Positions 6,583 to 21,039 of a stretch of 64,000 bases of DNA are shown one piece after another. The DNA comes from Candidatus Ruminimicrobiellum bubulum (GTDB lineage: Bacteria > Elusimicrobiota > Endomicrobiia > Endomicrobiales > Endomicrobiaceae), in assembly GCA_017651625.1 (NCBI GenBank), contig JAGCCP010000055.1, positions 124,001 to 188,000 of the forward strand, written 5' to 3'. A model generated the notes under the pieces. The model was not told where the DNA came from. It saw nothing but the letters and a program-made list of their open reading frames with translations, and did not search any database. A program made the translations under genes and the position numbers. Every line of letters begins with the position of its first letter. Within the stretch, counting starts at the first letter, position 1.

Positions 6583-7746
6583 ATGAAAAAAATAATGTTA
6601 GTATTTGGAACTCGTCCTGAAGCTATAAAAATGGCACCATTGGTAAAGCAGTTCCAAAAAGATACTACAAATTTTAAAACTATCGTGTGTGTAACAGCAC
6701 AACATAGGCAAATGTTAGACCAAGTTCTTAACTTGTTTGAAATTAAACCTGATTACGATTTAGACATTATGCAACAAGGTCAAGATTTGTATGATATTAC
6801 ATCAAGAGTATTAACCGGTATAAAACAAGTTTTAATTTCAGAAAAGCCGGATGTTGTTTTAGTTCATGGTGATACCACTACAACAATGGCAGCATCTCTT
6901 GCAGCATTTTATCAACAAATACCGGTAGGACACGTAGAAGCAGGTTTAAGAACAAACAATATTTATAGTCCATATCCGGAAGAAATAAACAGACAAATAA
7001 CAGGTAGAATATCAACTTACCATTTTGCACCTACACCGTTAAGCAAACAAAATTTACTTAAAGAAAATGTTAATGATAAAAATATTTTTGTTACAGGTAA
7101 TACGGTTATAGATGCTTTGTATTGGGTAGTAGACAAAATTAAAAATAACGAAAGCTTACAACAAGAACTTTCTAACCAAATATTAAGTTTTGGTTATGAT
7201 GTTGCACGACTAAACAATAATAAAAAACTTGTTTTAATTACAGGGCATAGAAGGGAAAATTTCGGTGACGGTTTTATTTCAATATGTAAAGCAATTAAAA
7301 CATTAAATCAAAAATATAACGATGTGGATTTTATTTATCCAATGCATTTAAATCCACAAGTAAGAAAACCTATAAAACAAGTTTTTGGAACAGATACGCC
7401 AAAGAATATGTTTTTTATAGAACCATTGGACTATTTACCATTCGTATATTTAATGGAAAAATCTTATTTAATTCTTACCGATAGTGGTGGAATACAGGAA
7501 GAAGCTCCGGGGCTTGGTAAACCGGTACTCGTAATGAGAAATACAACAGAACGACCTGAAGCAGTAGATGCCGGAACAGTCCGACTTGTCGGAACGGATT
7601 ACGATAAAATAGTGCAAGAAACTTCAAAACTTTTGGAAAATGAACAATATTACAATTCAATGAGCAAAGCTATTAACCCTTATGGTGACGGTAAAGCTTG
7701 TGAGAGAATTGTGGAAACCTTGAGGAATAGAGGTATAGAGGATTAG
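6583..7746 (+). CDS. wecB: UDP-N-acetylglucosamine 2-epimerase (non-hydrolysing)
   Basis: A 387-residue GT-B-fold epimerase that interconverts UDP-GlcNAc and UDP-ManNAc. Conserved segments are [14 protein letters not shown] at the N-terminus, [44 protein letters not shown] and [12 protein letters not shown]. The start codon follows the wecC stop immediately, so the two are translationally coupled. This is the last sugar-precursor gene before the ATPase/KAP insertion. Confidence 0.97.
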
Positions 7747-7788: not shown

Positions 7789-10005
7789 GTGAGTAAAATT
7801 GATATCTCTCTAACAAATTGTTATGGAATAAATAAGTTAGACTATACTTTTGATTTTGATGCTACAAAATCTTATGCAATCTATGCACCAAACGGAACAA
7901 TGAAAACCTCTTTTGCCAAGACATTATTAGATTATAGTAAAAATCAACAACCTAATATTTTACCCTTTCCTAATATAATTCCTGTTATTGAAATAAAAGA
8001 AGATAATAAAGCTATTGAACCTAATGAAATTTTTGTTATAAAGTCAGAAGTAAGTAATTTTCAAACAGAAAAGATGTCAACATTACTTGTAAATAAAGAA
8101 CTCCGTGATAAACATTTAAAAATAACAAAAGATATAGAAGAGAAAAAAGAAATATTATTAAAAGAACTTGAAAAAGTTTCTGGTATAAAAAACACTAAAG
8201 GGAAATTAGAAATAATATTCATAAAAGATATTGTTGGTTCAGAAAAGAAAAACTTATTTTTAACAGCATTAAATGATTTAAGACATAGAGTTTCTATATC
8301 TGAAAAACAATTTATAAATGTGACTTATAGTATTTTATTTAACAGCAATACTGAAAAACTTTTTACGGACTCAAAATTCATTAATGAACTTGAAAAATAC
8401 ATGGAAACTTATGACAAACTTATCTCATCTTCTGTATTTTTTAAAAGAGGAGTATTTAATCATACAAATGCTGATATTATAACTAAACAACTTATAGAAA
8501 ATGGTTTTTTTAAAGCAAGTCATAAAGTTTCTATAAATACTAAAAATGGTATTAAAGAAATATCTACAGATGAAGATTTAAAAAAAGCGATAGAAGAAGA
8601 AAAATCATATATATTAAATAGTTCCGAATTAAAAAAATCTTTTGAAAACTTTTCAAAAATTTTACAAAGGAATGCAGAAACAAGAGCTTTAGCAACATAT
8701 CTTGAACAAAATCCTAACATAATAGAAAATCTTAGAGACTGGCAAAATTTTAAAAGAGATATTTGGGCAAGTTTTTTTAAAGAAATAGAAGTATTTTACA
8801 ATGACCTTGTACAAAGCAATGATGATGCTCAACCAAAACTTAAAGCAATACAAGAACAGGCAAAAAAAGAAACTTCTAAATGGGATAATGCCGTTCAAAT
8901 TTTTAAAGATAGATTTTATGTTCCATTTGATATTAAAGTAGATAATAAAATTGATGTAATGTTATCAGGGGAAGAAGTCGCACCCGCATTAAGTTTTAAA
9001 TATATTGACAGATTTACAGGTGAAAAACTTCCTATTAAAAAAGATGATTTATATACAAATTTAAGTACAGGTGAACAAAGAGCACTTTACATACTTGATA
9101 TAATTTTTGAAATTGAAGCAAGAAAAGAACTAAAAGCAAAAACATTATTTATATTTGACGATATTGCAGATAGTTTTGATTATAAAAACAAATATGCAAT
9201 AATTCAATATTTATATGAACTAAATAAAGAAAATAAAAACTCTTATCAAATTATACTTACACACAATTTTGATTTTTTTAGAACAGTTGTTTCAAGATTA
9301 GGAATTAAAAGAGATTATGCATTATCTCCTGAGATATCAAAAAATGAAATATCTTTTAAAAAAATGCCGTATCTACAAGATTTATTTAAAGTTTGGAATA
9401 ATGAATTAGGCGAAGATAAAAACAAACTAATTGCTTCCATACCTTTTATACGAAATATTGCTGGATATTGTGGACTGAAAAATATAGAAAATAAATTAAC
9501 AGCTTTATTACATATTAATCCACAGTGTTATCCAAATACGAATAAAATTACAATAGCAGATTTGGAAGCTATTGTAAAATTTGTTTTAAAGAGCAAAGAT
9601 GCAAATTTTGTCCTTTGTAAAAAAACAAATAATTTACAAGCTACAGATATAGTAAAAGATATTATTTATTCCACAGCAGATACATTAATAAAAGAAGGTA
9701 AAAATTTATATCTTTTAGAAAATAAGATAGTCCTTTCCATTGCTATAAGATTAAAAGTTGAGGAATTTATTCTAAGTGAAATTGGAAACAATAAAATTTT
9801 AGATTTAGAAAAATATCAAACATTTAATTTAATACAAAATCATATCAAATATTTTGGCGATAAGTATAAAAAATTATTCACCGAAGTTCAATTAATAACA
9901 CCAGAAAATATACATTTAAATTCTTTTATGTATGAACCTATTTTGGATACCGGTTATGAAAGTTTAGTAGATTTATATAAAGAGGTTAGTCAATTACAAA
10001 AGTAA
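7789..10005 (+). CDS. AAA_13/RloC-like ABC-type ATPase, probable defence protein
   Basis: A 738-residue SMC/ABC-type ATPase. The Walker A at about 33-41 reads APNGTMKTS, with Met in place of the usual second Gly. A helical, probably coiled-coil insertion (about 100-400) separates it from the ABC signature LSTGEQRAL (about 425) and Walker B LFIFDDIADSFD (about 453-464). A switch His lies in LTHNFDFF (about 487). The C-terminal 200 residues hold conserved-looking text such as NSFMYEPILDTGYESL of unknown function. RloC/PrrC anticodon nucleases and several phage-exclusion proteins have this architecture, but I cannot identify a nuclease motif. The GTG start has an AGGAGAAT site. It sits 9 bp before the KAP gene and is foreign to the sugar pathway around it. 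Confidence 0.75.
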   Translation: MSKIDISLTNCYGINKLDYTFDFDATKSYAIYAPNGTMKTSFAKTLLDYSKNQQPNILPFPNIIPVIEIKEDNKAIEPNEIFVIKSEVSNFQTEKMSTLLVNKELRDKHLKITKDIEEKKEILLKELEKVSGIKNTKGKLEIIFIKDIVGSEKKNLFLTALNDLRHRVSISEKQFINVTYSILFNSNTEKLFTDSKFINELEKYMETYDKLISSSVFFKRGVFNHTNADIITKQLIENGFFKASHKVSINTKNGIKEISTDEDLKKAIEEEKSYILNSSELKKSFENFSKILQRNAETRALATYLEQNPNIIENLRDWQNFKRDIWASFFKEIEVFYNDLVQSNDDAQPKLKAIQEQAKKETSKWDNAVQIFKDRFYVPFDIKVDNKIDVMLSGEEVAPALSFKYIDRFTGEKLPIKKDDLYTNLSTGEQRALYILDIIFEIEARKELKAKTLFIFDDIADSFDYKNKYAIIQYLYELNKENKNSYQIILTHNFDFFRTVVSRLGIKRDYALSPEISKNEISFKKMPYLQDLFKVWNNELGEDKNKLIASIPFIRNIAGYCGLKNIENKLTALLHINPQCYPNTNKITIADLEAIVKFVLKSKDANFVLCKKTNNLQATDIVKDIIYSTADTLIKEGKNLYLLENKIVLSIAIRLKVEEFILSEIGNNKILDLEKYQTFNLIQNHIKYFGDKYKKLFTEVQLITPENIHLNSFMYEPILDTGYESLVDLYKEVSQLQK

Positions 10006-10014
10006 ATTATAATA

Positions 10015-12936
10015 ATGAAAAACAAAATAAATAATTTTTACCAAATAATAAAAGATTCTTTATTTAAATATCTCGTATACTTAATAATTATATGCTTATT
10101 GGCACATTTAAATGAGGATATTAGAAATTTTGGTATTTGTTTAAAAGATAATAATCCTTATTTTTTAGCTGCATGTTTGATTATGTTGTTGTTATTAATT
10201 ATCGTTCCGTATACAAGAACAAAATATAAAAAATATATTGAAAAAATCTCAAAAGAAAATATTATTTATTCTATTTATATATTTTGGGCTTTTATCTTTT
10301 TTGAAAAAGAATATTTATTTGTAACTATATCTTTTGTAATGGTTATCTTTGTTTTTCCTTTTATCAGATGTTGCTTTTCTCAAAAAAAAGAAAATGAAAA
10401 ACTAGATAATATACAAACTTTAATATATTTGGATGAACCAATAAAAACAAAAGAACAGGATTCTTTAGGAAGAGATAATTTTATTAAAGCTATTAGGAAT
10501 ATATTATTGAAAAATCAAATATCTAATAAAAAAAATGGATTTGTTTTAATTTTATCTGCAAGTTGGGGAGAAGGAAAAACAAGTTGTCTTAATTTGTTAA
10601 GAGAAGCTGTAAGTGAAAGTTCGGAAGCAAAAGGAACGAATTCTTTTGAATTTATTGATATAAATCCATGGTTCAATGATACTAAAGAAAAATTATTAAA
10701 TGCTCTTTTTGGTGAATTGAATCATTTTGCAAAACTAAATTTTCCTCATATTTCTTTAGAAAATCAGTTTGATGAAATAGTAAAACTTTCAAGTGTAAAA
10801 TTAGGTAATATAGAACTTGAATTAGATAAATTTACAGAAGATAAAAATATACAAAATAAAATAAAAGAAGTCGGAGAACAATTAAATAAATATTCGAGAA
10901 GAATAATAATTACTATTGATGATATTGATAGATTAGAAAAAAATCATATATTGTACATATTACAAGTAGTTCAGATGTTTAAAGAATATACTAATATAAT
11001 TTTTATATTGAGTTATGATCCTGTAAAATTAGAAGAAATTTTATGTGAAAGTTCTGATTCTTGTTATACTGATAAAGCAATTTATAAAAGTTCATGTTAC
11101 AGAAATTATATTGAAAAAATAGCATCGGTTACAACACCACTTCCTAAAATAGAAAAAATTCACATGGAAAATATGTTATTTAAAGAAATAAATAATATTT
11201 TAGTAGAAGAAGAAATGCCAACAATAAAAAGAATTGATTTTGATTTTTATATTTCAACATCAAGGTTTAAAACCATTAGAGATATTAAAAGATTTTGTAA
11301 CACATTCTTGATATCTTATGCAGAAGTGAAAAATGAAGTTAATGTTTTTAATTATATTAATATAACTATATTATTTGTCTTTTATTCAGAAATTTATAAT
11401 GAAGCATGGATTGATCAAAATCAGTGGTTTAAATCAAAAATAAATGTTCATGATAATAAACAGGTAAGTTCAATAAGACAGTATTTTCAAAATATTATAG
11501 ATAAATACAAAGATGAAGATATTAAAAATATATATGAGTTAATAGAAGTAATCAGTCCTGTGTATCAACAAATTCCAGCAGAAGAAAATAAAAACTATCT
11601 AAAACAATCCAATAAAGGAGATAAAAGTTATTTTTTAGATGAAAGATATTTACAATATTATTTTACACATGATTTTTCAAAAAGCAGAATACCAGATAAA
11701 GTTTTAGATGAAAACTTGCAAGATTTTTTGAATGAAAAAAATGATGAAATAAGAGAACAAAATATATTGAGTTTTATGAAAAAATATAATTCTAAACTTG
11801 TAGATTTATTTAATTATCTCAATATTTATTATAAAGAAGAATATTTGAATTTAATTCAACAGATAATATTAATTTTTGCAAAAAACTCTTTTGATTTATT
11901 GAAAGATTTCTCTGATATTATAGAATATATTTCTAAAATAATATCAATATTTACAAAATATCAAGCTACAAGTGTCAATGATTTTTTGATAGAAATAATA
12001 AAAGATTCTTCATCAGTCTCTTTTTCTATAGAACTTTATGAAAAGTTGAACTATAACTATGATGGATTGTTAAATAATACTAATATAAATAATATTTTAG
12101 ATGATAAAATTTCAAGTAATATAAAAAAATCTTTAGAAAGTTTTAAATATGAGCAATGTACAAGATTCTTATATTTTTGGTTACAAAAATATTATGTTAC
12201 TAAAAAAGTAGATATTGTTGATATTGTTGATTCAAGACCGGAAGATTATATATTAACAAGGAATAAAGTAAAAAGCATATTACCTTTTATTAAAGATGAA
12301 GTTGAATATTTTATGGCATTTATCGGTAAAGATTTAGAACATGCAATTAAAAGTTATAGAGATAATAATTTTATAGGTTTAAATAATATTTCTTTTAGCA
12401 ATTTTATTTTTTTTATTGATATATGGGGAAAAAATAATATTTTAGATATGTTAACTAATTTTCTAGATAATGATAACGGGAAAAACTATTATGATAGAAT
12501 TAATAATTTAATTGTATTGTATAAAATGGTATTGAAAGATAAAAAAATTGCAAATAAGGTTAAAGAGCACGAAATAAAAATGTTTCATAAGATAGGTTTT
12601 TATGATTTAATAAGAAATATAGATATATATGAATTTGATACTGAAAAATTTTTTAATAATTTTAAATTTGATTATTCTTATAAATATAAAGATAAAAGAT
12701 TTTTTGTTGAAATTAGAGTAGCTAATAGAAATATCGAAAGTTCTCGTATAAAAGACTTACTTGTTAAATTAAGTAATAATGAAATTATTTATTTTTATTA
12801 TATTGTTGAAAGTAAAGATGAAAAAGAGAAATTAGAAAGAGAAATAAATGAATTTATATCAAATATAAATACAAGTGATAAAAATAAATTTGGGTATAGA
12901 GTAGAAATAAAAAAAGATTTGTTAGAGAAGTATTAA
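10015..12936 (+). CDS. KAP-family P-loop NTPase with membrane helices
   Basis: A 973-residue protein. The first 120 residues contain about four membrane helices, then a KAP NTPase domain. The Walker A is SWGEGKTS (about 183-190) and the Walker B region is IITIDDIDRL (about 298-307), followed by FILSYDP, a typical KAP sensor-like strand. The C-terminal 500 residues are helical, charged and unrecognised. KAP NTPases are membrane-tethered ATPases, and the family includes the F-plasmid phage-exclusion protein PifA. The gene follows the ATPase by 9 bp with no clear ribosome-binding site, so coupled translation is likely. The pair is very A+T-rich and has no link to polysaccharide chemistry. Confidence 0.8.
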   Translation: MKNKINNFYQIIKDSLFKYLVYLIIICLLAHLNEDIRNFGICLKDNNPYFLAACLIMLLLLIIVPYTRTKYKKYIEKISKENIIYSIYIFWAFIFFEKEYLFVTISFVMVIFVFPFIRCCFSQKKENEKLDNIQTLIYLDEPIKTKEQDSLGRDNFIKAIRNILLKNQISNKKNGFVLILSASWGEGKTSCLNLLREAVSESSEAKGTNSFEFIDINPWFNDTKEKLLNALFGELNHFAKLNFPHISLENQFDEIVKLSSVKLGNIELELDKFTEDKNIQNKIKEVGEQLNKYSRRIIITIDDIDRLEKNHILYILQVVQMFKEYTNIIFILSYDPVKLEEILCESSDSCYTDKAIYKSSCYRNYIEKIASVTTPLPKIEKIHMENMLFKEINNILVEEEMPTIKRIDFDFYISTSRFKTIRDIKRFCNTFLISYAEVKNEVNVFNYINITILFVFYSEIYNEAWIDQNQWFKSKINVHDNKQVSSIRQYFQNIIDKYKDEDIKNIYELIEVISPVYQQIPAEENKNYLKQSNKGDKSYFLDERYLQYYFTHDFSKSRIPDKVLDENLQDFLNEKNDEIREQNILSFMKKYNSKLVDLFNYLNIYYKEEYLNLIQQIILIFAKNSFDLLKDFSDIIEYISKIISIFTKYQATSVNDFLIEIIKDSSSVSFSIELYEKLNYNYDGLLNNTNINNILDDKISSNIKKSLESFKYEQCTRFLYFWLQKYYVTKKVDIVDIVDSRPEDYILTRNKVKSILPFIKDEVEYFMAFIGKDLEHAIKSYRDNNFIGLNNISFSNFIFFIDIWGKNNILDMLTNFLDNDNGKNYYDRINNLIVLYKMVLKDKKIANKVKEHEIKMFHKIGFYDLIRNIDIYEFDTEKFFNNFKFDYSYKYKDKRFFVEIRVANRNIESSRIKDLLVKLSNNEIIYFYYIVESKDEKEKLEREINEFISNINTSDKNKFGYRVEIKKDLLEKY

Positions 12937-12971
12937 GTTTACAAAATTTATTAAGAATAAAAATTTATTAA

Positions 12972-13070
12972 CAAGCTTGGTTAGAAATATCAAGTTTATA
13001 TGCATTAGGAAAAGATAACAAAATAGAAGAAAAATTTGTAAAAACAGTTTTGAATAAGAATTATGAGTAA
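12972..13070 (+). pseudogene. Possible 3' remnant of a lost gene
   Basis: Between KAP and wzy, one frame reads 32 codons without a start, from AWLEISSLYA to a TAA at 13068. Its amino-acid composition looks protein-like rather than repeat-derived. It may be the tail of a gene deleted when the ATPase/KAP pair inserted. I do not recognise the family; chance is a real alternative. Confidence 0.25.
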
Positions 13071-13102
13071 TAATTGTTTTTTATGGATTTTAAGGTAATT
13101 AT

Positions 13103-14320
13103 ATGGTAGCGATTTTTATAAATTTAATATCAATTGCTTTTTCTATATGGGTTGTTTACCATTATTTAAAAAAAGAGAATAATATCATAATTTATTTCTT
13201 TTTACTCTCTCTCTTTTTTGTAATAATCCCTATTTTTGTGGATTCTATTGGAATAAACTTTTTAGGACAAAATTATATACAAATAATATTAAATAATAAT
13301 TCTGAAATGTACAATATAAATTTTTTAGATTCAGAAATCAATCTTAAATTCACATTGTTCGTATTTGGATTTAATTTATTGCTTTTTTTATCATATAAAC
13401 TATTTACATATAAGTTAGATGGTTGTAAATATAGTATAAAAAAACAATCTTTCTATTCATCTTTTGTTTATATCTTGTTAGGTCTATTTTCTGTAATACT
13501 ATTTTTTATTCATAAAAATATAGATGTATTTAATTCTATAACTATAATTTTATTTAATTTTTTTTCTATAGGATATGTAATAGGAATTGTTCCAATTTTG
13601 AGAAAAAAATGTTATTTTCAATTTATAATTTTATTTTTACCAACCTTATTTTTTGCACTGACAACTGGAAGTAGAGCATTGTTTGTATCATTTTTTTTAA
13701 TTTTTTTCTATTCTTTATTGGATGATTTTGAAAAAAACAAACATGTTTTATTAAGAGCAATATATATTGTTGGACTAATATTAATTTTGATACCATTATT
13801 TAACTCTTTTAGAAAGGGTTCTTTATCTTTAAGTTATCCGTTTTGGAGAGATGTTTGTGTTGGTGATGGTTATTTTGCTTTTGCAGGTACATTTTATCAT
13901 CAATTTGCTAATGGTATAATTCGTCTCATACAAACAGGTCTTCCATATATTTCAGAATCAATGAATTATTATGATATTACAAAACAACTTGCAGATGAAA
14001 GATTTTTTATTGGTTGGGGGTCAATACATCCAACAGCATATGGTTGGCTTTTTATAGATTTACAATGGTACGGAATTTTAACAGCAATCTATTTTGCATT
14101 GTTTATATCTTTCATAGAATATATTAAATATTTTTTCAGAAAATACAAAATAGTATCAATGTTAATTGCATTTGAGTTAGTATTCCTTATAATATTTATA
14201 AGAGGCTCTGTTCAATATGCATATTCTACTGTTATTTATCCTATAATTATTATATTTTTATTAGTTTTATTATATTCTTTTTGTAATAGTAAGATAATAA
14301 AGACTAAATTTAAAAATTAA
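13103..14320 (+). CDS. Oligosaccharide repeat-unit polymerase (Wzy-like)
   Basis: A 405-residue protein with about 10-12 predicted membrane helices and few recognisable motifs, as is normal for Wzy polymerases. A long hydrophilic loop lies at about 235-310, between helix clusters, and matches the large periplasmic loop typical of these enzymes. It is followed by the flippase gene, which supports a Wzx/Wzy pathway. The call rests on topology and position rather than on catalytic residues; an exopolysaccharide-related membrane protein of another type remains possible. Confidence 0.7.
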   Translation: MVAIFINLISIAFSIWVVYHYLKKENNIIIYFFLLSLFFVIIPIFVDSIGINFLGQNYIQIILNNNSEMYNINFLDSEINLKFTLFVFGFNLLLFLSYKLFTYKLDGCKYSIKKQSFYSSFVYILLGLFSVILFFIHKNIDVFNSITIILFNFFSIGYVIGIVPILRKKCYFQFIILFLPTLFFALTTGSRALFVSFFLIFFYSLLDDFEKNKHVLLRAIYIVGLILILIPLFNSFRKGSLSLSYPFWRDVCVGDGYFAFAGTFYHQFANGIIRLIQTGLPYISESMNYYDITKQLADERFFIGWGSIHPTAYGWLFIDLQWYGILTAIYFALFISFIEYIKYFFRKYKIVSMLIAFELVFLIIFIRGSVQYAYSTVIYPIIIIFLLVLLYSFCNSKIIKTKFKN

Positions 14321-14337
14321 AAATATTTTACAATACT

Positions 14338-15672
14338 ATGTTTAAAACAAAAATAAGTTATTTAAAACAAACAATAAAATCTGCATTAGTAAAAAGAATT
14401 TCTAATGCAGCAAAATGGTCTTTTATAGGTGCAATTTGTCAAAATGCTTTAATGTTATTAATAGGTATAGTATGTATTCATATACTTGGTAAAGAAACTT
14501 TTGGTAAATTGGGAATTATAAGATCTACAATACAAATTTTTATAGTTTTAGGCGCTGTAGGTATGGGCTCTACAGCTACAAAATTTATTGCTGAATTTCG
14601 TAGTAAAGATTTAAATAATCTTAAAAGTATATATTCTATTGTAAATATAATAAGTTTTTGTACAGGATTAATTTCGTTACTATTTGTTTTGTTATTAGCT
14701 CCTAAAATTGCTGTTTATTTGAAAGATTATTCTTTAACATCTTCTATTAGAATAGGTGGGTTATTATTATTTTTTACAATTATAAATTCAGTTCAAAATG
14801 GAATTCTTTCGGGTTTAGAACAATTTAAACAAATTGCTTTAAATACAATAATAGGTTCAATAGCAGAATTTATATGTATTATTTTAGGTGCTTACTTTTT
14901 CTCTTTATATGGTGCATTATTAGGTTATGGAATTGGTTTTATAGTTTTATCTTTATTAAACCATATTTCTGTAAGAAAAAATTTAAAATCATTAGATGTT
15001 AAATTTTCTTTTAATACTGTTCATTTAAAACTACTAAAAAAATTGATTTTTTTTAGTATTCCTTTAATGTTTTCAAGTTTATTGGTTGCACCTGTAATGT
15101 GGTTTGCTCAATCTATAGTAGCTCGTTCTACTAATTTTTCGGAAATTGCTATTTACTCTGTAGCCGATCAATGGAGAATGGTATTGCTTTTTGTTCCAAG
15201 TGCATTATCTCGTATAGTATTGCCAATTTTATCTAATCTTTATTCAGATAACAATATGATATCTTATTTAAAAGCTTTGAAATACAATATAATTTTAAAT
15301 ATGTCTACTACAATTATATCTTTTATTGGGTTATTGCTATTTTCTTCTTTTTTATTAAAGCTATATGGATTAGAAAAGATAGCAATATATCCGATGTTAA
15401 TACTTGGAGCATCAACTATATTTGCATCAATTGGAAATGTTGTAGGGCAAGCTATAATAAGTAGGGCAAAAACATGGATAGGCTTTTTATTTAATTTATT
15501 ATGGGGAATAATGATAATATTATTTACTATTTTATTTTTAAATTTCTTTACAGGCTCACAATCTTTGGCATTAGCAGTTTTGTCTTCTTATATTTTACAT
15601 ACAATATTTCAATCAATATATTTTTATTATATAACTAAAAATATAAATACTAAACAAGAGGTAAAAGCATGA
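14338..15672 (+). CDS. Polysaccharide flippase (Wzx/RfbX-like, MATE-superfamily)
   Basis: A 444-residue protein with about 12-14 membrane helices. It starts with the family-typical WSFIGAICQNALMLLIG and has GKETFGKLGIIRSTIQ near residues 55-70. These proteins move undecaprenyl-linked repeat units across the inner membrane. The gene overlaps the next glycosyltransferase by 4 nt, so the two are co-translated. The length and helix number fit the family. Confidence 0.9.
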   Translation: MFKTKISYLKQTIKSALVKRISNAAKWSFIGAICQNALMLLIGIVCIHILGKETFGKLGIIRSTIQIFIVLGAVGMGSTATKFIAEFRSKDLNNLKSIYSIVNIISFCTGLISLLFVLLLAPKIAVYLKDYSLTSSIRIGGLLLFFTIINSVQNGILSGLEQFKQIALNTIIGSIAEFICIILGAYFFSLYGALLGYGIGFIVLSLLNHISVRKNLKSLDVKFSFNTVHLKLLKKLIFFSIPLMFSSLLVAPVMWFAQSIVARSTNFSEIAIYSVADQWRMVLLFVPSALSRIVLPILSNLYSDNNMISYLKALKYNIILNMSTTIISFIGLLLFSSFLLKLYGLEKIAIYPMLILGASTIFASIGNVVGQAIISRAKTWIGFLFNLLWGIMIILFTILFLNFFTGSQSLALAVLSSYILHTIFQSIYFYYITKNINTKQEVKA

Positions 15673-16778
15673 AAATATTAGTAATTTTAAAAGGGTCTTT
15701 AAGTAAATTACCTCCAATTATAACTACTTGTTTGTCATTATCAGAGTTAAATCATAGTGTTACAGTTTTTACACAAAGTTCAAGTGATTATATAGAAAAT
15801 ATTTTTAGAGAAAAAAATATAAGTATTGTTTACTATAAAGAAACTAAAATGTCTACGAAAATAAAATTGATTAGCAAAATATGTACATGGTTAAATTTTA
15901 GAAAACAAGTTAGAGAATACATTAGTAAAAATAAGTTTGATTTTTTCTGGATAGGTTCAGCTGATACTGCTTTAGCTATTGGTAAAAAACTTTTAAATTT
16001 TAAGTATGTTTTCCATGTACATGAATTATATGACACAGTTCCATATTATCGTAGAAATTTAAAAATTTATATGCAAAAAGCTTTAAAAATTTTAGTCCCT
16101 GAAGAAATACGTGCACATATATTTAGAGCTTGGTACCAGCTTAAAGAAACACCTATAGTTTTGCCAAATAAGCCATATTATCATCCAAGAAAAAGGAATT
16201 TAGAAATAACAGATAAAACTGCAAAAGAAGCTTTTGAAAAAATTCCAAAGGGATCAAAAATTGTTTTTTATCAAGGTGGGTTGAGTGAAAAGAGAGATTT
16301 GAAAACTATAGCAAAAGCTATTGAAGAAATGGGAACACCATGGTGTTTAGCTGTGCAGTGTCCTATTACTAAAAATGCTTATTATGAAGATTTTTTTAAG
16401 AATTATAAGTTTTATTATATTCCGTATGTCAAAGCACCTAAACATCTAGAAATAACTTCAAATGTGGATATAGGTTTAGTTTCTTATAGTCATATATCTT
16501 TAAACAATGAATTTTGTGCACCAAATAAAATATGGGAGTATGCTGGTTTTGGATTACCAATAATTGCAAATGATGTTTTTGGATTAAAAGAATTTTCTTA
16601 TAAATTTAAATTTGGAGTATGTTTGAATTTTAATAAAACGACAAAAGATGATTTTAAGAAAATATTATATGAACTAGATAATAATAGTGAATTATATTCA
16701 AGAGATAGTAAGTTATTATATGAAAGTATAGATATAACAAAAACGATAATGGAGGTAATTTCAACAGTAAAATGCTGA
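15669..16778 (+). CDS. Glycosyltransferase (GT-B, GT4-like)
   Basis: A 369-residue GT-B-fold transferase. The N-terminal acceptor domain begins MKILVILKGSLSKLPP. The C-terminal donor domain contains FYQGGLSEKRDLKT and a nucleotide-sugar-binding region APNKIWEYAGFGLPI, in which the conserved E of the E-x7-E-type motif is in the expected place. It overlaps the flippase by 4 nt and the next gene by 7 nt. Donor and acceptor sugars are unknown. Confidence 0.85.
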   Translation: MKILVILKGSLSKLPPIITTCLSLSELNHSVTVFTQSSSDYIENIFREKNISIVYYKETKMSTKIKLISKICTWLNFRKQVREYISKNKFDFFWIGSADTALAIGKKLLNFKYVFHVHELYDTVPYYRRNLKIYMQKALKILVPEEIRAHIFRAWYQLKETPIVLPNKPYYHPRKRNLEITDKTAKEAFEKIPKGSKIVFYQGGLSEKRDLKTIAKAIEEMGTPWCLAVQCPITKNAYYEDFFKNYKFYYIPYVKAPKHLEITSNVDIGLVSYSHISLNNEFCAPNKIWEYAGFGLPIIANDVFGLKEFSYKFKFGVCLNFNKTTKDDFKKILYELDNNSELYSRDSKLLYESIDITKTIMEVISTVKC

Positions 16779-17995
16779 AAAATTATAAATATACAATTGA
16801 AAATAAATTATGTATGGGCTGTGGAGCATGTTTTGATGAAAATTCCACAATTGAATTGCAAAAAGGATATCTTATTCCATCAAAATTTAAAGATATAGAT
16901 GTATGTCCCGGATTAGGATATAGTTTGCCTTTTGCTACAAAAGAATATTGTTATAAAATGGAACTTGGAGTATATGACAAAATATTTTCTGCTACAAGTT
17001 TAGATAAAACTATTTTAGAAAAAGCATCTTCTGGTGGAATAATGACAGCAATAGCAGAATTCTTATTAAAAGAGAATTTTGTGGATGGCATTATTGTTAC
17101 AAAAATTAATGTTGAAAATGGCAAAATTCTGCCTATGCCATATATTGCTAGAAATAAAGAAGATTTGTTGCTTGCACAAGGTTCAAAATATATGCCGGTT
17201 CCATTATTATCTTTTATTAAAACATTATCAAAAAGTGAAGAAACATTTGCATTAATTGGTACACCTTGCCAAATAGCAGGGTTACATTTAATGCAAGAAA
17301 AAAATCCAAAGTATAAACAAATAATTAAATATACAATAGGTAATTTTTGTGGAGGATTTAGAGATTTAAGAGAAATATATACTATTTTTAATAGATTAAA
17401 AATTTCAGCTGAAGATGTAGAAAATTTTTCGTATAGAGGTGGTGGACAACCTGGCTTTTTAACAATAAAAACTAGAGAGGGAATTTATAAAATTGCATAT
17501 CCTAAATATAACAAAATGACAGGATTTTCAACTATTAGAAGATGTAGACTATGTGTTGATGCTACAGCAGAACTTGCTGATTTTTCTTGTGGAGATGCTT
17601 GGCTTAAAAAATTTTTAAATAAAAAAGAATGTAAATCTATTATTATCACAAGAAATAAAAATGCTTCTAATATTTTAGAATTAATGGAAAAGCAAAAATA
17701 TATTACAAGAGATAAGATGTCTATAGATGATGTAATTGAAGCACAAAAAACAAATATTTATTCTAAAAAAATAAGACAAAAAGCAAGAAGAAAAATATTT
17801 AGTATTTTATGTAAAAAATTACCGGACTTTAAGGAAACATCTTTTAGTTCAAAAAACACAAGATTATTGACAGAACTAAAAGTTTTATTATCACATAGTA
17901 TTTTTTATTGTTTACAAGTGTTAGGTTTATATACTTTTATAGCTAAATTAATAAAAAGGGATAATGCTGAAATTATTTTTGAGGAGAAAAAATAA
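16772..17995 (+). CDS. FrhB-like iron-sulfur flavoprotein of polysaccharide loci
   Basis: A 407-residue member of the coenzyme F420 hydrogenase/dehydrogenase beta-subunit family. An N-terminal ferredoxin-like CMGCGAC plus a CPG further on gives a cluster site. Next come ASSGGIMTAIAEFLL, GTPCQIAGL, and a second cysteine pair RRCRLCVD followed by DFSCGDAW. Members in polysaccharide loci are usually next to a polysaccharide pyruvyl transferase, as here, and are presumed redox enzymes acting on sugar or pyruvate-linked intermediates; the reaction is unproven. It probably does not imply F420 use. Confidence 0.85.
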   Translation: MLKNYKYTIENKLCMGCGACFDENSTIELQKGYLIPSKFKDIDVCPGLGYSLPFATKEYCYKMELGVYDKIFSATSLDKTILEKASSGGIMTAIAEFLLKENFVDGIIVTKINVENGKILPMPYIARNKEDLLLAQGSKYMPVPLLSFIKTLSKSEETFALIGTPCQIAGLHLMQEKNPKYKQIIKYTIGNFCGGFRDLREIYTIFNRLKISAEDVENFSYRGGGQPGFLTIKTREGIYKIAYPKYNKMTGFSTIRRCRLCVDATAELADFSCGDAWLKKFLNKKECKSIIITRNKNASNILELMEKQKYITRDKMSIDDVIEAQKTNIYSKKIRQKARRKIFSILCKKLPDFKETSFSSKNTRLLTELKVLLSHSIFYCLQVLGLYTFIAKLIKRDNAEIIFEEKK

Positions 17996-17996
17996 A

Positions 17997-19367
17997 ATGC
18001 AACAAAAAGTATTTAATATTTTTGTTCCTGAATATGTTCCGGTTGCAAATAAAGGAGAATTGGCGATAGTACTTGGAATGATAGATTCTATTTTTCCGAA
18101 TGAAGAAGTTAAAGTTCACATTTTAGATATGAATTGTAAAAAAGTTTATAGTATTGATAATGTAGTAGTTTATCCTGCACAATGGTTTTTGCCTTCATGG
18201 AGATATAAAGAATTTAAATTAGGTTTTTCTTTAGAAAATATTATTGCTTCTATTTGTTCCGTCTTTAGAAAAGTACTTTATATCTTGTTTCCTAATTGGA
18301 TAAAAAAACCACAAAATAATTTAAAGTATATAAACAAAATTTTACAAAAATATAAAAACAAAATTATTCCCAAAAATTATAAAGAACAATATTTATATGA
18401 TTTATTTCAATGTGATTATATATTAGCTGGTCATAATGGTGGATTAAATGTTGAAGTTTGCCATATATTAGATTTGTTTTATAAATATGACTTTCATTTT
18501 GGAGTTTATGGCTCTTCTTTGAAACCTCGTGTAAAGAAAGGAGCACTAATTGAAATATTTGATAATATTCTTTCTAAAGCAGATTTTGTTTATGTAAGAA
18601 ATAACATTGCTTTACAATGGGCAAACAAATATTTAAATAAAGTAAAAGCTATTTTGGCACCTGATCCGGCTTTTTGTATGCAAGAAACTGATGAAAAAGA
18701 AATGAATGAAGTGTTAAAAGAAAACAAATTGGATAGTTTTTTTGATAATAATACTATTGTAATGACCGTTTGTGAACCGGCACCAATATCTCGTTATAGT
18801 TTTTTAGAAACAAAAGATTTTATAAAGAAGCAAACTTTACACAGACAATTGTTGGCTTCATTGATAAATCATATTACAAAAAATACAGATGCAAAAATTT
18901 TATTTTTACCTCATTCCATTGGACCGGAAAAATATTTAGATGATCGTTTGATAGCAAGACATGTTATGAAACTTGTAGAAAATACTGATAGAATACGAAT
19001 TTTAGATGCAGAAATTAGTCCTAGAGTTTTAAAAACTTTTATAAAAAAATCAAAATTACTTATAGCAGAAAGAATACATTCTTTAATAGGAAGCGTGAAA
19101 GTTAATACTCCTTTTTTAGCTATAGGTTCTAATTGGGATTCAAGAATTCATGGCATAGTAGAAGAAATGTTGGATGCAAAAGATTATGTATTTTTGTTGG
19201 ATTATCCTAAAAGTGATGATTTATGTAAATTATTTGATACCATTTGGAAGAATTTGCCAAATATAAAACAAAATAGAATAGAAAAAAATAATAATATTAT
19301 TTTATGGGCACAAAAAACTGGTTTAGAAATAAATAAGATAATAGAAAAGAATATAAACAAAAAATGA
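17997..19367 (+). CDS. Polysaccharide pyruvyl transferase family protein
   Basis: A 456-residue CsaB/WcaK-type protein that adds ketal-linked pyruvate from PEP to a sugar. Visible are VPVANKGELAIVLGM near the N-terminus, AGHNGGLN, GVYGSSLKP, LAPDPAF, LFLPHSIGPE, and AERIHSLIGSVKVNTPF in the donor half. The frame is open from 17964 inside the upstream gene, but the ATG at 17997 has a strong GAGGAG site at 17981 and starts right after the preceding stop. It forms a conserved pair with the FrhB-like gene. Confidence 0.88.
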   Translation: MQQKVFNIFVPEYVPVANKGELAIVLGMIDSIFPNEEVKVHILDMNCKKVYSIDNVVVYPAQWFLPSWRYKEFKLGFSLENIIASICSVFRKVLYILFPNWIKKPQNNLKYINKILQKYKNKIIPKNYKEQYLYDLFQCDYILAGHNGGLNVEVCHILDLFYKYDFHFGVYGSSLKPRVKKGALIEIFDNILSKADFVYVRNNIALQWANKYLNKVKAILAPDPAFCMQETDEKEMNEVLKENKLDSFFDNNTIVMTVCEPAPISRYSFLETKDFIKKQTLHRQLLASLINHITKNTDAKILFLPHSIGPEKYLDDRLIARHVMKLVENTDRIRILDAEISPRVLKTFIKKSKLLIAERIHSLIGSVKVNTPFLAIGSNWDSRIHGIVEEMLDAKDYVFLLDYPKSDDLCKLFDTIWKNLPNIKQNRIEKNNNIILWAQKTGLEINKIIEKNINKK

Positions 19368-20518
19368 AAGTTTTAATAAACACACTTTCTTTAAGAGCCG
19401 GTGGTGGGCAAAAAGTGGGATATAATATTGTTAGTTATTTGTTGGCTAACAAAAATAAATATCCGGCTTTTGATTTTTATTTTTTGTGTGCAAAGAATTC
19501 AAAGTTATATGATTTACTGATTGCAAATAGAGAGGAAAATATTGTTGCATTGAATTCTTCAAATAAATTTAATTATATGATAAATTATTTTTTTAAAATT
19601 CCAAACTTGTTAAAAAAAATTAAGCCAGCAGTTGTATATAGTATTTTTGGGTATCCGTTATGTCCTAAAAAATATTGCAATGTTATAGGTGAAGCTGCTT
19701 CAAATATTTTCTTTCCGGAAATTAATTTTTGGGAAGACTATAAAGGTTTTTCTCTTGCTAAAAAAAAGTTTATTGATTCTATTAGAATTAGAGCATTAAA
19801 ACAAGCTGATGGAATAATTTTTGAAAATGAAGCTATGTTTAGAAGAAGTCATACTGTTTTTAAAATTCCGGAAGAAAAAACTTGTTTTATAAAACCAGCA
19901 ATAGATAAAAGTATAAATGAAAACATAATAAATGAAAGATTAGATTCTAACTTTAAATTACTATTATTATGTTCTTGGCAATTAAATAAAAATATTATGA
20001 TTATTCCAAAATTACTTGAATATATTAAGCAGAAAGGAGAAAATATAAAAGTTTTGTTTTCTGTTAAATCTAATGAAACAAATAATATAGCACAACAATT
20101 TTATAAAGAAATACAAAATAGAAAGGTTGAAAATTATATTGAATATATTGGGAGCATATCTCCGGAAAAATTGCCGAATATTTATGAAAAAATAGATGCT
20201 GTTTTATTATTAAGCAAACTTGAAAGTTTTAGTAATAATATAATTGAAGCTTGGAAATTTCAAAAACCATTAATTATTAGTGATATGGAATGGAGTCGTT
20301 CTATAATAAAAAATCCCGCTGCTTGTTTTGTGAATAGAGACGATATTAATGATATTTTTGAGACTGTTTTAAAATTGAAAAAAGATAAATCTTATTATGA
20401 CAATATTGTTCTAAAAGGGAAAGAAGAACTTAATAAATATCCAAATATAGATATATTTGTGCAAGAAATATTTGATTTTATTGAAAAAATTATAAAAAAT
20501 TCAGAAAAGGAGAAATAA
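19364..20518 (+). CDS. Glycosyltransferase family 4
   Basis: A 384-residue GT-B retaining glycosyltransferase. The N-terminus [16 protein letters not shown] has the acceptor-domain glycine loop. Donor-domain landmarks are [48 protein letters not shown] with the E-F-x4-E-type ending, and PLIISDMEW. It overlaps the pyruvyl transferase by 4 nt and shares one base with the acetyltransferase start. Confidence 0.9.
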
Positions 20519-21039
20519 TGTTTCATAAAATACTTGTAATATCTTACGAATATATAATGGCTTTAATTTTTCTTTTACCAAGATTTCATTTTTGTAATGG
20601 TATAAAAGCATTGTTTTTGAAACTTCGTGGAGCAAAAATAGGCAAAAGAGTTGTTTTTTATCCGACAGTTTGGATTTCTATATCTAAAAAAGGAAAATTA
20701 ATAATTGAAGATGATGTTGATTTAGCTTTAGGTGTATTAATCACTGTTTCATCAAAAGTACACGTTGGTGCAAGAACATTAATAGGTTATCGTACTCAAA
20801 TTTTATCAAGTAATCACAATATTCCAAATAATAAAGAACAAATTTTTACAGCAGGACACACATCTAAAGATGTTATTATAGAAAAAGATGTTTGGATTGG
20901 TGCCGGTTGTATTATATTACCGGGTGTAACTATTGGAGAAGGGGCGGTTATAGCTGCAGGTTCTGTTGTAACAAAAGATGTTGCTCCTTTTACTATAGTT
21001 GGCGGATGTCCGGCAAAATTAATAAGAGAAAGAATATAA
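20518..21039 (+). CDS. Left-handed beta-helix O-acetyltransferase
   Basis: A 173-residue hexapeptide-repeat acyltransferase of the WcaF/maltose acetyltransferase type, acetylating a sugar of the repeat unit from acetyl-CoA. A short membrane or amphipathic segment (1-25) is followed by hexapeptide turns: [28 protein letters not shown], the catalytic-His region SSNHNIP, then [27 protein letters not shown]. The C-terminal GGCPAKLI is characteristic. The ATG overlaps the upstream stop (TAATG). Confidence 0.92.

Follow-up and report, generated by a model that had tools for sequence, protein, structure and literature searches.

An ATPase gene of the candidate defence family PDC-S46 and a KAP NTPase gene side by side in a surface-polysaccharide locus of Candidatus Ruminimicrobiellum bubulum

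Two adjoining NTPase genes and their surroundings

The stretch of DNA analysed here, referred to as the window, comprises 64,000 nucleotides (G000:C54:124001–188000) of the 1.88 Mb genome of Candidatus Ruminimicrobiellum bubulum. Two genes on the forward strand lie 9 bp apart: the first (7789–10005, GTG start) encodes an ATPase of 738 aa, and the second (10015–12936, ATG start) encodes a membrane KAP NTPase of 973 aa. Both reading frames are open over their full length. Upstream, the pair is flanked by wecB (6583–7746, forward strand), which encodes a UDP-GlcNAc 2-epimerase (Pfam Epimerase_2, 5.7e-124), and downstream by a gene on the same strand (13103–14320) whose product has ten TM-like segments. 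Identity and placement of the two genes as given in a first-pass annotation of the locus were thereby confirmed. The annotation had named the downstream gene wzy; from its ten TM-like segments and its position we infer a polymerase-like product, but a Pfam match is absent. A polysaccharide flippase gene follows (14338–15672, forward strand, Polysacc_synt), and the same-strand run further includes genes for a sugar transferase, a UDP-sugar dehydrogenase, glycosyltransferases, and a pyruvyl transferase. No restriction genes were found among the scanned window genes flanking the pair, and wecB was absent (E 1e-60) from all ten genus mates (G001–G010).

GC3 amounts to 0.115 in the ATPase gene and 0.116 in the KAP gene, to 0.109–0.147 in the sugar genes at 13103–21039, and to 0.204 in wecB, which places the GC3 step between wecB and the ATPase gene. 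The two genes had been described as very A+T-rich; their low G+C content is real, but it is not restricted to them. As the downstream sugar genes are equally G+C-poor, the pair forms the apparent edge of a low-G+C block and not an island within one. Compared with its nearest relative, the ATPase gene shows 90/70/203 differences at the three codon positions over 478 codons, and the KAP gene (nearest relative 61% identical) shows 237/169/311 over 963 codons; in both cases, the codon-position differences appear to fit genes under selection. A promoter scan returned 51 sites against 51.1 expected, i.e., chance level, and the same scan found no terminator.

The KAP gene is separated from the polymerase-like gene by a gap of 166 bp (12937–13102, forward strand), the place that is taken by abiH in relatives of the KAP gene. 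It holds only an orphan frame of 31 codons (12975–13067), perhaps the last part of a gene since lost, which matches nothing convincing. This frame is not an AbiH remnant, and none was recognised in the gap.

The ATPase and its C-terminal domain

The ATPase matched the PADLOC profile PDC-S46 with 734.9 bits and 3e-221 (residues 2–736, profile positions 2–718 of 719), and its only Pfam match was a weak one to SMC_N under the cut-off. Its AlphaFold model (pLDDT 86.9) predicts a Rad50/SMC-type ABC head at about residues 1–530, followed by a helical C-terminal part. The sequence includes the Walker A motif APNGTMKTS (residues 33–41; 7885–7911, forward strand) and the ABC signature LSTGE (residues 425–429; 9061–9075, forward strand). 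This Walker A motif, previously regarded as unusual, is present but ordinary for its family: N35, G36, K39, and S41 occur in 92/92 lettered rows of the conservation alignment, and M38 in 82 of them. The alignment contains 94 rows (92 distinct), with the window included and the row of L102 lacking the C-terminal end; three of the 96 ATPase loci, which did not form one complete reading frame, were omitted from the conservation count, namely L046, which is cut by a contig end, and L125 and L027, which contain stops. Alignment A2 comprised 63 of 80 eligible loci and the window. With PDC-S46, a single-gene candidate in PADLOC-DB, the window ATPase shares the full-length match, the length, and the Walker A motif, but it differs at 13 of the 147 columns that are ≥90% conserved, including Gly559 in place of the usual Glu.

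Relatives of this ATPase were confirmed in at least 565 genome stretches from bacteria and archaea, the best 80 of which were kept. Furthermore, plasmids contributed 27 records, 24 of which cover ≥80% of the query in a single place, and additional relatives came from one phage record and six viral contigs. Titles of the records include Bacteroidota, Clostridium, Pseudomonas, Paracoccus, Nitrospira, Saccharibacteria, Dehalococcoidia, a cyanobacterium, and two archaea; the relatives from a Micrarchaeota bin (L073) and from Methanohalophilus (L116) extend the family to the latter. A relative on a Rhizobium anhuiense plasmid (L025:8001–10178) is publicly annotated as 'phage infection protein'. The PDC genes of PADLOC are viewed as candidates in one paper (PMC11514479), and a search of open-licence papers found none that names PDC-S46. 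NCBIfam holds no family for the ATPase or the KAP protein, and sequence searches returned no solved structure for the ATPase, the KAP protein, the ATPase profile, PrrC, or AbiH.

A nuclease had been suspected in the last 200 residues of the ATPase. Modelled alone, the C-terminal part reached a pLDDT of 87.3, and structural comparison by VIA related approximately residues 621–738 (9649–10002, forward strand) to the HEPN toxin 8yuf as the top match (Z 7.2, rmsd 3.5, 107 aligned), to HepT 6m6u (Z 6.2, rmsd 3.9, 107 aligned), the ROQ domain of Roquin 4qik (Z 6.1, rmsd 3.6, 104 aligned), 2q00 (Z 6.1, rmsd 3.3, 98 aligned), and the sacsin HEPN domain 3o10 (Z 4.8, rmsd 4.0, 100 aligned), where Z values below 8 among helical bundles can reflect a common arrangement and families beyond the listed rows may fit as well. 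The ROQ domain, too, is presumably HEPN-like. Foldseek likewise rated the model as weakly HEPN-like, with the sacsin HEPN domain as best match (E 1.6, prob 0.44). The C-terminal profile gave a single match among solved structures, which was taken as chance (E 0.37), and no match was found in the viral structure library. The predicted bundle includes R654 and E658, both present in 94/94 rows, and H709, present in 93/93 lettered rows; together with R555, N556, H575, K646, N711, E716, and D720, they form a cluster of invariant or near-invariant polar residues.

Other signs of a HEPN nuclease are missing. The canonical motif R-x4-6-H is absent from the C-terminal domain, as the single instance in the protein lies at residue 220, and residues 615–738 showed no similarity to the PrrC and RloC profiles (42/60 and 21/60 column shuffles scored equally high), whereas a profile comparison of PrrC with RloC did detect similarity (80.8%, score 35, against a shuffle maximum of 18). 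The protein has another R-x3-E site, R555/N556/E559, which aligned better with that of PrrC; none of 60 shuffles reached its score, and the probability was just 8.7%. Since the HEPN motif and the PrrC/RloC similarity are missing and this second site aligns better, we filed the ATPase as PDC-S46 only. Codon 559 of the ATPase gene in the window (9463–9465) encodes Gly, whereas 85 of the 94 rows have Glu and six have Asp. A hidden nuclease, in the form of the predicted HEPN-like bundle with invariant R654, E658, and H709, is plausible but unproven. The odds that the C-terminal domain is an RNase are roughly even or slightly under. The combination H-x-N-x4-E-P (H709 to P717 of the ATPase, and PrrC of L146) was dropped as a signature, as among 16 PrrC-like rows it is complete only in L146 and partial in L170.

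Two known systems invite comparison. With PrrC, the window ATPase shares an ABC ATPase head and a C-terminal helical domain, and its PDC-S46 relatives share the restriction-modification neighbours. Its R654/E658/H709, an R-x3-E with a downstream His, may correspond to the catalytic Arg-x3-Glu…His triad of PrrC, but the site R555/N556/E559 aligns better with PrrC. In contrast to PrrC, it is not matched by the PADLOC PrrC profile (E up to 1), it is longer (738 aa vs. 444 aa for PrrC of L146), it lacks the C-terminal profile similarity over residues 615–738, and no restriction genes adjoin it in the window. The link of PrrC to type I restriction-modification has no counterpart beside the pair among the window genes scanned, whereas type I, II, and III genes lie beside some relatives. 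With RloC (PDC-S06, AAA_13), the window ATPase has the Rad50-like head in common (hhalign 99.5%, mostly the ATPase part). The catalytic pattern of RloC is Arg-x3-Glu-x36-52-His, and mutating any one of the three residues abolishes its tRNase activity (PMC2610378). In the window ATPase, Arg654-x3-Glu658-x(n)-His709 has n = 50; the family mode is 53, and 12 of the 94 rows fall within 36–52. Unlike all seven RloC-like proteins compared, the 738-aa window ATPase lacks the zinc-hook CxxC, and it is not among the 7/64 members of the PDC-S46 family that match AAA_13. No viral contigs were found for two RloC-like queries. Within the Endomicrobiaceae, RloC-like (PDC-S06) genes lie right after type III methyltransferase-like genes (named by eye) at L126 and L128 (G017 and G032).

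Neighbours and partners in other genomes

The two genes had been proposed to form one two-gene defence system, and the same pair was sought elsewhere without success; for the samples searched, this is the outcome that the annotation itself had named as refuting the proposal. Just one of 96 ATPase loci (about 1.49 Mb of flanking sequence in total) contained a KAP-like match, which was 27.7% identical, about 5 kb off, and on the opposite strand. Across 99 genomes, the window's own included, the ATPase occurred in four and a KAP match in ten; the two occurred together only in the window's genome and thus in 0/98 other kin genomes.

We then compared the genes adjoining the ATPase relatives with more distant ones. 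Among 136 adjacent genes from 69 loci, five matched N6_Mtase, five N6_N4_Mtase, five ResIII, and eight PADLOC mad2, whereas 118 control genes more than 6.5 kb away included one match each to N6_Mtase and mad2, with N6_N4_Mtase and ResIII outside the 25 families listed for them. The number of PADLOC families matched was 445 among the adjacent genes vs. 83 among the control genes; these tallies count genes per family, and a single gene may match several families. Adjacent ORFs were called mechanically, and 136 of 138 were scanned (two of more than 1200 aa were omitted); one, downstream of L125, is the remainder of L125's own broken ATPase gene. Judged by these neighbourhoods, the usual company of the ATPase relatives is restriction-modification genes. 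In G024, for example, an ATPase relative follows C5-methylase, R.HinP1I, and Vsr genes after a gap of 21 bp. No sugar gene ranks among the 25 commonest Pfam families of the 136 adjoining genes, and this neighbour scan yielded no hint that the ATPase relatives belong to a sugar pathway. A truncated PDC-S46 gene (L033:9091–9645, G046) lies behind a restriction-modification-like pair, i.e., an Eco57I-type methylase gene and a gene with weak restriction-enzyme matches below the cut-off.

The KAP protein has three TM-like segments at its N-terminus (residues 11–30, 45–70, and 93–114), followed by a KAP P-loop domain at residues 153–436 (PF07693, 106.5 bits at a cut-off of 20, 2e-30). It also matched PADLOC PifA in part (2.8e-34), with the best stretch covering positions 158–468 of the 720 in the profile. 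Together with the PDC-S46 match of the ATPase (3e-221), this bears out, for each gene separately, the statement that both families occur in phage exclusion. PifA, the KAP protein of the F plasmid that acts in T7 exclusion, reportedly responds to T7 proteins and probably kills via membrane depolarisation (PMC8594841). The P-loop domain is common to both proteins, but the window protein has three TM-like segments before it and about 390 residues beyond the matched stretch, and its relatives pair with AbiH.

The full-length form of the KAP protein was found in three of 294 genomes of the phylum, i.e., in the window's own (G000), in G013 (61% identical), and in G003 (34%). Both other relatives are directly followed, on the same strand, by a gene for AbiH (PF14253, 3.4e-35 and 2.1e-35), whereas a search of the window's entire genome, at E up to 1, returned no AbiH. 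These two AbiH proteins share just 28% identity and yet both follow a KAP gene, which argues for a partnership that has been kept. Only three of 198 kin genomes encode AbiH, and two of these three proteins are the KAP neighbours. On the evidence of these two genomes, AbiH is the usual partner of the KAP gene. Two AbiH proteins match SIR2_2 weakly and below the cut-off (5.3e-4 and 1.3e-3), and the genes adjoining the two KAP relatives are toxin-antitoxin-like (by eye) or defence candidates. On plasmids, KAP matches occurred in 16 records, all distant and none more than 80% covered, and AbiH in three; no AbiH annotation was present in four KAP plasmid neighbourhoods and no KAP annotation in one AbiH plasmid neighbourhood. 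Viral contigs were not found for the KAP alignment. No description of a KAP–AbiH pairing was found in a search of open-licence papers. In the same genus, the KAP and AbiH genes of G003:C2 (L035:1921–11952) lie amid PADLOC matches to PDC-S47, PDC-S31, and an AriA/PtuA-like ATPase.

Possible functions and defence genes in polysaccharide loci

On sequence grounds, we regard as established the family membership of both genes, their lack of linkage in the other genomes searched, the restriction-modification neighbours of the ATPase relatives, and the AbiH partner of the KAP relatives. The best explanation, to which we assign a probability of roughly 0.6, is that two phage-defence genes, each moving independently, have come to lie next to each other in a surface-polysaccharide operon and do not form a conserved two-gene system. 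The two defence-type genes probably act separately. The same strand, the spacing of 9 bp, and the equal GC3 would also suit one joint defence system, which is nonetheless very unlikely, as the pair recurs in none of the other genomes examined (a distant KAP at one ATPase locus, and both genes in none of the kin genomes) and the relatives of each gene have other habitual neighbours. It is more improbable still that both genes serve polysaccharide synthesis, e.g., as regulators of the locus: the sugar genes around them on the same strand point in this direction, but no sugar gene is among the frequent families beside the ATPase relatives, and both full-length KAP relatives adjoin toxin-antitoxin-like or defence-candidate genes.

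Other alternatives concern the single genes. The KAP gene may no longer work and be the leftover of a KAP–AbiH system, since both full-length relatives have AbiH as the next gene downstream and the window's genome lacks it. We consider this rather doubtful, as the reading frame is intact over 973 codons, its differences from the 61% identical relative look selected, and nothing recognisable of AbiH is left in the gap of 166 bp. Regarding the ATPase, its C-terminal part may be no nuclease and may bind DNA, RNA, or a partner, the protein then being an ATP-driven sensor or silencer tied to restriction systems. The missing canonical HEPN motif, the weak structural matches by Foldseek and VIA, and the lack of PrrC/RloC similarity over residues 615–738 all suit this possibility, and one paper (PMC3710099) considers some motif-less HEPN domains to be RNA binders without catalytic activity. 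We hold it to be possible but not the likelier case, as the cluster of (near-)invariant polar residues suggests an active site more than a scaffold.

Under the preferred explanation of two separate defence genes, the Rad50-like ABC head of the ATPase would sense an infection signal, i.e., a DNA end or the failure of a restriction system. Nucleotide-driven dimerisation could then set free an RNase activity of the HEPN-like C-terminal domain, which would halt translation as PrrC and RloC do. The KAP protein might be an NTPase sensor that is anchored in the membrane and in the normal case drives the weakly SIR2-like AbiH; the lone KAP protein of the window could act in exclusion on its own, like PifA, or could be the remaining half of a KAP–AbiH system.

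More tentatively, PDC-S46 may join PrrC and RloC as a third lineage of suicide RNases that are linked to restriction and combine an ABC ATPase with a HEPN-like domain, with active-site residues of its own, and KAP and AbiH a module of membrane NTPase and SIR2-like effector, the halves of which lie apart in surface-polysaccharide loci of Elusimicrobiota; such loci would then collect defence genes. Both families are already known, and the leads worth testing are the C-terminal domain of PDC-S46 and the KAP–AbiH pairing. For an uncharacterised and very widespread candidate defence family, this provides a testable hypothesis with named residues. Adjacency in a single genome would have misled here, as the real partners emerge only when relatives are compared.

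Polysaccharide loci had been suggested as landing sites for defence genes, and one independent case in the Elusimicrobiota supports this. An AbiH gene of G202 (L226:7643–8659, G202:C25), the product of which is 68% identical to AbiH of G013, is placed without KAP between pyruvyl-transferase-like and flippase-like genes (named by eye) of a polysaccharide locus. Since this AbiH gene sits without KAP, parts of such defence systems seem to move separately. For the Endomicrobiaceae, the window adds a case of defence genes within a polysaccharide locus; such loci commonly give rise to phage receptors. The first gene of the G202 stretch matches the sugar transferase of the window at 48%, and the same locus contains, at 12070–16219, a SIR2_2 gene (1e-15) and, next after it, a gene of 1034 aa.
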